Below are positions 2,621 through 30,453 of a stretch of 64,000 bases of DNA, in pieces. A program made the position numbers and the translations under genes. Location of the stretch: positions 2,976,001 to 3,040,000 of the forward strand of contig NC_013922.1 in assembly GCF_000025625.1 (NCBI RefSeq), written 5' to 3'. The notes beneath the pieces are model-generated. The model saw only the letters and a program-made list of their open reading frames with translations, did not search any database and was not told the DNA's origin. This stretch comes from Natrialba magadii ATCC 43099. GTDB taxonomy: Archaea > Halobacteriota > Halobacteria > Halobacteriales > Natrialbaceae. How positions within the stretch are numbered: the stretch's first letter is position 1; each line of letters starts with the position of its first letter.

Positions 2621-3670
2621 ATGACCACATCGGCGGGAACCTGGCGCGACGCCATCGACGACGTCGACGCAGCGCTGATCGACGGCTACCAGAGCGGCTT
2701 CCCGATCGAGGAACGGCCGTTCCAACGGGTCGCAACCGACCTCGGAATCGAGGAAGACGCCGCCGTCGACCGCGTGCAGGCACTCATGGACGCCGGCATC
2801 GTCCGCCGGTTCGGTGCCGTGCTCAACCCGCCGGTGATCGGCTCCTCGACGCTCGCAGCAGTCAAAGCCCCCGAGGACCGGTTCGACGAGGTTGCGGAAA
2901 CGATCAACGACTACCGGCAGGTCAACCACAACTACGCCCGCGACCACGAGTGGAACATGTGGTTCGTCGTCACTGCCGGCTCACAGGCCACACGCGACGC
3001 GATCCTCACCGAGATCGAGGAGAAAACGGGGTGTACGGTGCTCACCCTTCCGATGCTCACCGACTACTACATCGACCTCGAGTTCCCCGTCGTCAACACC
3101 GACCGCTTCGCCCGCGAGTCACTCACCGCACAGACCGACGCGTCGGCGACCCGGATCAGCGAATCTGCGACTGGCTCACTGTCGGTACTCGAGTCCGAGC
3201 TCTTGCTCGCAATTCAGGACGGGTTTCCGCTGTCGGCGACGCCGTACCGAGACGTGGCCGACGAACTCGATGCAGAGGTCGAGGCTGTCCTGGCTGCAAT
3301 CGAGCGGCTGCACGGTAACGGCTGCATCAAGCGAATCGGCTGTATCATCAACCACGTCGTGACTGGCTTCGATTCGAACTGTATGGTCGTCTGGGACGTA
3401 CCGGACGAAAAACTCGACGAGTGGGGCGAGCGTGCTGGCGGGCTGCCGTACGTAACGCTGTGTTATCACCGACCCCGCCGGCCCGAGCAGGACTGGCCGT
3501 ACAACCTGTTCACGATGATTCACGGCAGGGATTCCGACGCCGTCGACGAGAAAATCGACGAGTTGGCGGCAGACTACCTGCCAGTCGACCACGATCGGCT
3601 CTATTCGACGGAGACGCTGAAACAGACGGGTGCGCGGTACGACGAAATCGTTAGTTCAGCCGACGAGTGA
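2621..3670 (+). CDS. ahbAB: Siroheme decarboxylase, AhbA/AhbB-type Lrp/AsnC domains fused, 349 aa
   Basis: The protein contains two successive Lrp/AsnC-type modules, about residues 5-165 and 185-345. Each starts with a helix-turn-helix-like segment (LIDGYQSGFPIEERPF and LLLAIQDGFPLSATPY), followed by a GxI-R-R/K-x-G strand (GIVRRFGAVLN and GCIKRIGCIIN) and a ferredoxin-like fold with YARDHEWNMWFV in the first half and YHRPRRPEQDWPYNLFTMIHG in the second. These conserved His/Arg/Tyr stretches are characteristic of siroheme decarboxylase AhbA/AhbB (NirDLGH family). The enzyme converts siroheme to 12,18-didecarboxysiroheme in the archaeal alternative haem pathway. The subunits are usually separate proteins, so this is a natural fusion. 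A DNA-binding role cannot be excluded. Confidence 0.85.
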   Translation: MTTSAGTWRDAIDDVDAALIDGYQSGFPIEERPFQRVATDLGIEEDAAVDRVQALMDAGIVRRFGAVLNPPVIGSSTLAAVKAPEDRFDEVAETINDYRQVNHNYARDHEWNMWFVVTAGSQATRDAILTEIEEKTGCTVLTLPMLTDYYIDLEFPVVNTDRFARESLTAQTDASATRISESATGSLSVLESELLLAIQDGFPLSATPYRDVADELDAEVEAVLAAIERLHGNGCIKRIGCIINHVVTGFDSNCMVVWDVPDEKLDEWGERAGGLPYVTLCYHRPRRPEQDWPYNLFTMIHGRDSDAVDEKIDELAADYLPVDHDRLYSTETLKQTGARYDEIVSSADE

Positions 3671-29882: not shown

Positions 29883-30040
29883 ACTGGGATACTGGTAGGC
29901 CGGTAGGCCGGGAGACTGGTTGCACCAGTTGCACCGGTTACGTTCACTGCGGGTGACTCCAGTGATTCCAGTGATGTTTCTGAGAGACGAACACCGAAAC
30001 GCACATTTTAGCGGGGCGGATATCCACGAGTGCCTTTTGT

Positions 30041-30124
30041 GCGAGGGTAGCCAAGCAGGCCAACGGCGGTGGGCTTAAGACCCGCTCCCGTAGGGGTCCG
30101 AGGGTTCAAATCCCTTCCCTCGCA
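30041..30124 (+). tRNA. tRNA-Leu (anticodon UAA)
   Basis: Class II tRNA of 84 nt. The acceptor stem GCGAGGG pairs with CCCTCGC (30117-30123), discriminator A. The D arm contains AGCCAAGCAGGCCAA. The anticodon loop CTTAAGA (30074-30080) gives anticodon TAA at 30076-30078. A long variable arm follows, then GGTTCAAATCC as T-arm. CCA is not encoded. A TTTTA element near 30006 could be its promoter. Confidence 0.95.
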
Positions 30125-30453
30125 TGTTACCGCGAACATCCGTGAGCGGTGACTGCGAGATGACGGGATGTGAACGACGGAACGAGGGAGCGAAGCGACC
30201 GAAGTTCAGGTGGTTCAAATCCCTTCCCTCGCGGCGTGTTACTCCAACCGGTATTTGTCACCTGTTCGCTATAGCAACAACTGCAACTGCTTACACACGG
30301 ACCGTACAGCAGTCACACGACCAGGTGCTCATCGACTTGCAGGGGCTACTATAGTTCAGTCCGTCAGCTCTCGTTCCACACGCTCCCCAAACAGCGTCTG
30401 TTTGCATCGCCGGTAAAAGCTTCACGAGGGTGGCCGCGATAGAACGTCCGGCT
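30125..30453. other. Intergenic region downstream of tRNA-Leu
   Basis: Apart from the duplicated tRNA 3' end (30212-30232), no gene is supported up to the membrane protein at 30454. The block GAGGGAGCGAAGCGACCGA (30184-30202) also echoes part of the tRNA acceptor region. The rest is unremarkable. Confidence 0.55.
30212..30232 (+). repeat. Duplicate of tRNA-Leu 3' end, att-like scar
   Basis: The 21-nt GGTTCAAATCCCTTCCCTC plus GC at 30212-30232 is identical to the last 21 nt of the tRNA (30103-30123), 109 bp away in direct orientation. Such duplications mark tRNA-targeted integration or excision sites (attL/attR). No integrase gene is near, so this would be a remnant. Confidence 0.7.

Follow-up and report, generated by a model that had tools for sequence, protein, structure and literature searches.

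The duplicated tRNA 3' end in the analysed region of the Natrialba magadii genome (4,443,643 bases in 4 contigs) is best explained as belonging to a family of small mobile DNA segments, most of them devoid of genes, that follow tRNA genes in Halobacteria either alone or in rows; positions 30125-30232 of the window, that is, of the whole 64-kb stretch of DNA studied here, constitute one unit of this family. Across the genomes compared, we observed a recurrent anatomy with definable borders, matching of the units to the adjoining tRNA, a signature that extends through the class, precise presence or absence of units in congeners, exchange of modules and re-ordering of units.

The unit behind tRNA-Leu(UAA)

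The window contains a single tRNA gene, that of tRNA-Leu(UAA), detected both with the Rfam model RF00005 and with ARAGORN. The 21 nucleotides preceding its discriminator base, GGTTCAAATCCCTTCCCTCGC, are found at 30103-30123 and recur in direct orientation, at an offset of 109 bp, at 30212-30232. The duplication had been reported in a preliminary description of the sequence and is exact; a search for a third match with up to 3 mismatches in the window gave none, and 100 dinucleotide shuffles of the window produced no match to this sequence even at 3 mismatches. The copies are separated only by an 88-bp spacer that holds no element genes and no integrase. The locus comprises the following features:

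30041-30124, + strand: tRNA-Leu(UAA) gene, anchor of the array (Rfam RF00005, 50.3 bits; ARAGORN 30040-30125)
30104-30124, + strand: S, proximal, the tRNA 3' end from the GTTC of the T-loop to the discriminator base, delimited from the sequence
30125-30232, + strand: one complete unit, H1 - S' - M - S
30126-30153, + strand: hairpin H1, directly 3' of the tRNA, with stem TTACCGC../..GCGGTGA and a loop with GA-AC..CG-TGA
30164-30175, - strand: S', inverted copy of the T-loop/T-stem (CGGGATGTGAAC on the + strand), 2/12 mismatches against the reverse complement of S
30176-30212, + strand: module M, hairpin GACGGAACGAGGGAGCGAAGCGACCGAAGTTCAGGTG
30213-30232, + strand: S, distal, the second copy of the tRNA tail, with 20 nt counted from GTTC and 21 nt if the G before it is included

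The inverted T-loop copy at 30164-30175, both hairpins and the recurrence of the arrangement throughout the genome had escaped the preliminary description, which was correct in stating that no integrase is present: all 13 matches to PF00589 in the N. magadii genome lie outside the window, and Pfam searches with the 9 ORFs between 26992 and 33570 recovered no integrase.

Among seven Natrialba genomes (with ~1-2 kb behind the tRNA fetched in the congeners), tRNA-Leu(UAA) is followed by a short unit in six and by no copy in one; thus, five of the six congeners have the copy, at a spacing of 104-118 bp, and the exception is the congener G001, with no copy in the ~1.3 kb fetched. The units of the congeners G004 and G005, both inspected in full, differ from that of N. 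magadii in either M or H1. In the N. magadii unit, the H1 seen in G004 is joined to the M seen in G005; in the latter, a near-identical module stands behind a different H1. The preliminary description had pointed to two things that relatives might show, a locus devoid of the duplicated segment and an integrase-bearing element at the same tRNA; G001 provides the former within the stretch fetched, and no example of the latter was seen at tRNA-Leu(UAA) in the ~1-2 kb covered.

Farther downstream in the window, positions 30269-30354 hold a palindromic repeat of 86 bp (CTATAG..CTATAG). It is dispersed through the N. magadii genome, where the chromosome and two plasmids contain at least 37 more matches at 76-85% identity. 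Because it is absent from the corresponding place in G004, this repeat is probably mobile, in the manner of SMRs or MITEs.

Recurrence behind tRNA genes of Natrialba

Copies were counted over the 21 positions from GTTC to the discriminator base, allowing 3 mismatches. By this measure, 23 of the 44 tRNA loci of N. magadii have at least one downstream copy of their own 3' end, and the copy is exact at 22 of these 23 (that of the window differs in the last base). There are 1-4 copies per locus, mostly 94-170 bp apart, with four in a row at Leu(UAG). The 39 raw copies correspond to 36 distinct ones once double counts are removed (one was the neighbouring tRNA-Asp gene itself and two had been counted from both tRNA-Asp genes). 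As a control, foreign tRNA 3' ends were sought in the same flanks and matched in 1 of 926 trials. The congeners G004 and G005 have own-3'-end copies at 17 of 42 and 14 of 38 loci, respectively (controls, 1/806 and 1/672). The loci used in N. magadii, G004 and G005 (44, 42 and 38) derive from 45, 43 and 47 tRNA matches, those that were not fetched, were duplicates or had less than 250 bp of flank being dropped. In many cases, a tRNA locus has copies in one Natrialba congener and none in another.

Anatomy and borders of the units

The usual order between copies is tRNA 3' end, H1, S' (an inverted T-loop matched to that tRNA), M and the next S, so that S', M and S make up one long hairpin. The tallies of the fit of S' and of proximal and distal copies, as well as the first tally of borders, pool unselected loci with loci fetched by the inverted-T-loop pattern; the border profile and the count of S' were recounted with unselected, pattern-picked and PDDEXK-picked loci kept apart. 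With at most 3/12 mismatches allowed, S' was detected at unselected loci in 27 of the 40 N. magadii units (3 after shuffling) and in 28 of the 53 units from G004 and G005 (1 after shuffling), and it is thus common, not universal: 38 of the 93 unselected Natrialba units (~40%) have no clear inverted T-loop. The corresponding counts in other genera are 107 of 122 units at pattern-picked loci (3 shuffled) and 15 of 18 at PDDEXK-picked loci (0 shuffled).

S' is closer to its own tRNA than to the mean of the other tRNAs in 250 of 276 comparisons (67/69 in Natrialba and 183/207 in the others, a group that includes some Natrialba loci). Where the S copies differ, S' matches the proximal one in 27 of 32 units and the distal one in 2, with 3 ties, a preference that decay of the distal copies may equally produce. 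An inverted copy spanning the whole tRNA 3' end, suggested by the fold of the window, failed to generalise; the acceptor part has little or no antisense counterpart (fit to the own tRNA, p 0.08 in Natrialba and 4e-4 in the others).

The copies start with the G of GTTC in the T-loop and end at the final base of the tRNA. In the border profile, for which copies at unselected loci were chosen by their middle 12 nt only (41 copies in N. magadii), agreement with the tRNA rises from 0.61 at -1 to 0.85 at the G of GTTC and 0.98 at +1, and drops from 0.90 at the last tRNA base to 0.51 behind it. In G004 and G005 together, the values at these five places are 0.66, 0.77, 0.92, 0.72 and 0.40. That agreement stays below 1 at positions 0 to +4 is in part because distal copies carry a one-base insertion in the T-loop. 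The 3' border is not sharp at the PDDEXK-picked loci of other genera (0.72 at +20, 0.78 at +21). The inserted base is found at the same place of the T-loop (TTCA[C/G/T]AATC) in several distal copies (loci L044, L048, L288, L293, L297 and L308). Where the S'-M-S hairpin is folded, it would appear as a bulge, which we take to be reminiscent of the extrahelical bases in attC sites.

An imperfect inverted-repeat site with a G^TTC border is present in 55 of the 93 unselected units of the three Natrialba genomes and in 4 of 93 after shuffling. Given that the borders are S copies in direct orientation and the inverted copy is internal, the units have no terminal inverted repeats of the MITE or SMR kind. 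They are mostly gene-less: among the units inspected, an ORF within an otherwise complete unit was found only in a 720-bp unit behind tRNA-Asn. Behind tRNA-Phe of G005, there is a 982-bp stretch with an ORF, the copies of which have diverged. The units at Arg(GCG) (259 bp) and Leu(GAG) (265 bp) resemble plain tandem duplications.

Distribution across Halobacteria

A search for one module type in 84,980 genomes yielded at least 120 matching stretches, which among the matches listed belong, by title, nearly all to Halobacteria. Of the matching stretches, 80 were analysed for modules and 40 were set aside. The 80 stretches contain, again among the matches listed, 86 modules, 80 of which have a tRNA gene upstream on the same strand (79 within 1.5 kb); for 59 of these 80, the 21-nt copy is the 3' end of that very tRNA, and 4 of the 6 modules that have no tRNA lie at the edge of the fetched DNA.

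A general signature of the units, consisting of an inverted T-loop, 22-52 nt and a T-loop, was detected in 215 of 242 Halobacteria genomes, representing 70 of 74 genera, and the reversed pattern in none. In a sample of the phylum, 79 of 392 genomes have the signature, 72 of 81 inside the class and 7 of 311 outside it; at least one of the 7 matches outside Halobacteria overlaps an apparent tRNA gene. All 10 distinct places of the signature in N. magadii are within 235 bp behind a same-strand tRNA. In the set fetched via PDDEXK, which covers other genera, own-3'-end copies were found at 17 of 78 tRNA loci. Viral contigs were also searched: the exact 21-mer had one match, in a contig with its own tRNA-Leu genes, which was rejected as unrelated, and the inverted T-loop pattern had matches in at least 120 stretches, which as raw pattern matches are uninformative.

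Changes between Natrialba species

We compared the tRNA loci of G004 and G005 with those of N. magadii; 50 of the 86 comparisons were not resolvable. Base-precise pairs of occupied and empty sites were observed for five tRNAs: Ala(GGC), Arg(CCG), Asn, Leu(CAA) and Pro(UGG). At Ala(GGC), N. magadii has a 130-bp unit and G005 has none. The tRNA-Asn site is empty in G004; a 720-bp unit that carries a PDDEXK_5 gene occupies it in G005 and, together with a 154-bp unit, in N. magadii. Because the PDDEXK_5 gene is an old neighbour of tRNA-Asn, the empty site of G004 probably reflects a loss. The order of the units at Leu(UAG) differs among the three species. At Arg(CCU), G004 departs from the others in its S-H1-S' block and in its T-loop allele alike, and in each of the three species S' goes with the proximal S. 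Chimeric-looking units with joints at S' or inside M were found at Leu(UAG) of G004 and at Gly(GCC) of G005. The H1 of the 720-bp tRNA-Asn unit (L059) is inverted within its own stem between N. magadii and G005; an inversion of the whole H1 between S and S' was considered here and dropped, since the inverted part is confined to that stem. Collectively, the precise occupied and empty sites, the swapped modules and the re-ordered units in congeners indicate change at the level of DNA.

The comparisons do not establish that rows grow solely at the tRNA side, because 9 of the 11 'proximal' cases are comparisons with an empty site, in which polarity is unreadable. In 14 resolved pairs the first unit is common and the difference lies farther out, namely three pairs with distal differences and 11 more with a common first unit and a different end flank.

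Integrase and PDDEXK_5 genes in the vicinity of units

Three of the 13 integrase matches of N. magadii are located ~1 kb behind tRNA-Gly(UCC), tRNA-Glu(CUC) and tRNA-Lys(UUU). At tRNA-Gly(UCC), a unit lies between the tRNA and the integrase gene, so that units and integrase elements appear to have common landing sites. In Haloterrigena salina, tRNA-Val(CAC) and its array are separated by ~3 kb of DNA (L096:1-3260) that contains a frame for an ORC/CDC6-like ATPase (Pfam E 5.8e-8). The interpretation of this stretch as an element with a broken integrase was abandoned: the two integrase-like frame fragments recognised by eye have no Pfam match, and none of the PF00589 matches of the H. salina genome falls within the stretch. 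With the integrase unconfirmed there, the tie between the units and tyrosine recombinases is weaker, which makes site-specific entry slightly less probable and recombination between short repeats slightly more so.

Genes of the PDDEXK_5 family have a same-strand tRNA at a distance of less than 750 bp at 49 of the 51 loci examined (median 73 bp; the two loci with no usable tRNA are L204, at a contig edge, and L234). At the Halobacteria loci L199-L248, most of these genes follow either tRNA-Asn, in which case tRNA-Met often flanks the other side, or tRNA-Asp. In N. magadii (L059:1843-2304) and G005, the gene (PF11645, E 8.5e-28) is inside the 720-bp tRNA-Asn unit, between the S copies, and the entire gene-bearing unit is precisely absent in G004. 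Behind tRNA-Asn, the gene is devoid of copies at 23 of 28 loci (L204 left out), and is possibly no more than a long-standing neighbour; moreover, the query used found it in 111 of 242 Halobacteria genomes and not in the other 131, which makes it a poor candidate for moving units with a signature in 215 of the 242. At L248:2582-3089, tRNA-Leu(UAA) begins at 3005, directly after the end of a PDDEXK_5 match at 3004.

Possible mechanism and alternative explanations

We give about an even chance to the possibility that the units are non-autonomous DNA elements that enter the T-loop by site-specific recombination, with a putative enzyme supplied in trans. A unit would enter the tRNA gene at the T-loop, at G^TTC, and bring along its own version of the tRNA 3' end (from the T-loop to the last base), H1, an inverted T-loop copy and M; the 3' end of the unit would complete the tRNA, and the old end would be displaced to the far side, where it would appear as the 'duplicate'. 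The recombinase would most likely be a tRNA-targeting tyrosine recombinase, and in cruciform DNA or a folded single strand the inverted T-loop might recreate a recombination site that is double-stranded. Speaking against site-specific entry, presence or absence between direct repeats can also come from short-repeat deletion, and such deletion, together with shuffling, probably adds to the dynamics of the units. A bolder, integron-like version appears rather unlikely to us: almost any tRNA gene would serve as a landing site for single-stranded mini-circles folded into rods by the H1 and M hairpins, with the T-loop arms S and S' forming the double-stranded recombination site, which would enter at G^TTC and replace the tRNA 3' end each time, arrays being built and shuffled and genes such as PDDEXK_5 taken up on the way. 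The attC sites of integrons have a G^TT-like border.

An old tRNA-trailer unit could also have been duplicated, deleted and shuffled via the 21-nt S and the ~10-nt S' solely by short-repeat recombination, homologous or of the microhomology type, and replication slippage, with no dedicated recombinase. This we consider possible, if doubtful: PMC3119063 describes the loss of DNA between short direct repeats in Haloquadratum, and the chimeric-looking units of G004 and G005, the tandem-duplication look of Arg(GCG) and Leu(GAG) and the inversion of H1 within its own stem in the 720-bp tRNA-Asn unit all fit, yet neither the common 5' border G^TTC behind many different tRNAs nor the presence of a few module types behind many tRNAs, with T-loop arms matched to each, is readily explained in this way. 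Homing is very unlikely; here, the PD-(D/E)XK nuclease encoded by the PDDEXK_5 genes beside tRNAs would cut unoccupied 3' ends and the units would spread by repair. The proximity of 49 of the 51 genes to a same-strand tRNA and the gene-bearing tRNA-Asn unit with its precise absence in G004 agree with such a role, which has to be set against the wider distribution of the unit signature than of PDDEXK_5 and against the preponderance of copy-free PDDEXK_5 loci behind tRNA-Asn.

Were the units instead structured non-coding RNAs in the tRNA trailer, H1 would be a K-loop-like, possibly L7Ae-binding element, S' and S would mimic a T-arm, and the variation in DNA would be secondary. The motif GA[AG]C..CG[TC]GA, which we presume to be a K-loop, occurs in 113 of 265 H1 sequences, the tRNA and trailer of the window are predicted to fold better than shuffled sequences (z -4.3), and the position of 80 of 86 modules of one type, among the matches listed, behind a same-strand tRNA is in line with an RNA role. 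However, hairpins of unselected Natrialba units show no excess of G-U over A-C mismatches (23 vs 23, and 1 vs 17 inside M); an apparent excess of 153 vs 58 came from a sample rich in loci picked by one module and vanished in the unselected set. In addition, the predicted RNA pairs the inverted copy with the real tRNA 3' end and would thus misfold the tRNA, copies of the acceptor strand would be unnecessary for an RNA, and many tRNA loci that have no copies in one congener have them in another, all of which renders this explanation unlikely. The preliminary description had favoured a tRNA-directed integration followed by loss of most of the element. Such an event does usually leave a copy of the tRNA 3' end as its footprint, and other tRNAs can have larger stretches in this position, as at tRNA-Val of H. 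salina (~3 kb), but a common unit anatomy is found behind roughly half of the N. magadii tRNAs and in rows, its signature is class-wide, five of six congeners have a unit at tRNA-Leu(UAA), and the 88-bp spacer includes no element gene, so that a large element that once occupied this tRNA and left a scar is extremely improbable. While the lone scar has to be given up, the very small satellite insertion that the same description had mentioned in brackets comes close to what the base-precise occupied and empty sites of the congeners reveal.

Relation to known systems

Like the integrative elements that use tyrosine recombinases to enter tRNA genes (SNJ2-type among others, as portrayed in the pertinent parts of PMC8371274), the units have a tRNA target region, a regenerated 3' end and a displaced copy as the far border. 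They differ from these elements in being ~110 bp long and nearly all non-coding, in the possible arrangement in rows, in the inverted T-loop and two hairpins, and in their frequency, behind about half of the tRNAs in N. magadii and at 17/42 and 14/38 loci in the congeners. With integron cassette arrays, including those of archaeal integrons in the parts of PMC9668308 that describe them, the units have in common the rows, a terminal inverted-repeat hairpin of which the last arm is the border, variable presence, absence and order, and one gene-bearing unit. Unlike in integrons, no IntI or attI was found (the window was searched for integrase), nearly all units are gene-less, and the arms are the T-loop of the adjoining tRNA rather than integron R/L boxes; the main text of PMC9668308 contains no words starting with haloarchae, halobacter or tRNA.

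The SMR-A/B of Haloquadratum, according to the relevant parts of PMC3119063, resemble the units in being 80-110 bp long and gene-less and in having inverted repeats; SMR-A enter palindromes, and their mobilisation is unexplained. Unlike the units, SMRs have terminal inverted repeats and lack a target copy, and SMR-A favour the palindromes of IS605/PATE; no link of SMRs to tRNAs is made in those parts of the paper. We place the units among small non-autonomous mobile repeats, SMRs being different in borders and targets. A 21-nt target duplication alone would also fit casposon- or CRISPR-like arrays. The elements that replace gene 3' ends in fungal mitochondria likewise bring in a new gene end and displace the old one, but concern protein genes, are larger and involve homing endonucleases. 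In Haloferax gibbonsii LR2-5, 11 partial tRNAs, several of them directly adjoining a full tRNA, are perhaps the same thing in one genome; in the parts of PMC7921747 that deal with them, they are listed as remnants, with no unit anatomy or family recognised. Besides these, our search of the literature, mostly open-access, gave no match to the tRNA-tail units.

A repeat of a tRNA 3' end in a genome of Halobacteria is, thus, not by itself evidence of a lost provirus. If the proposed site-specific entry is correct, very small DNA elements would exchange tRNA 3' ends across a whole archaeal class, an influence on tRNA genes for which we found no description in the literature, and the units would offer natural tRNA-specific recombination sites along with a testable question, that of the enzyme that moves them.
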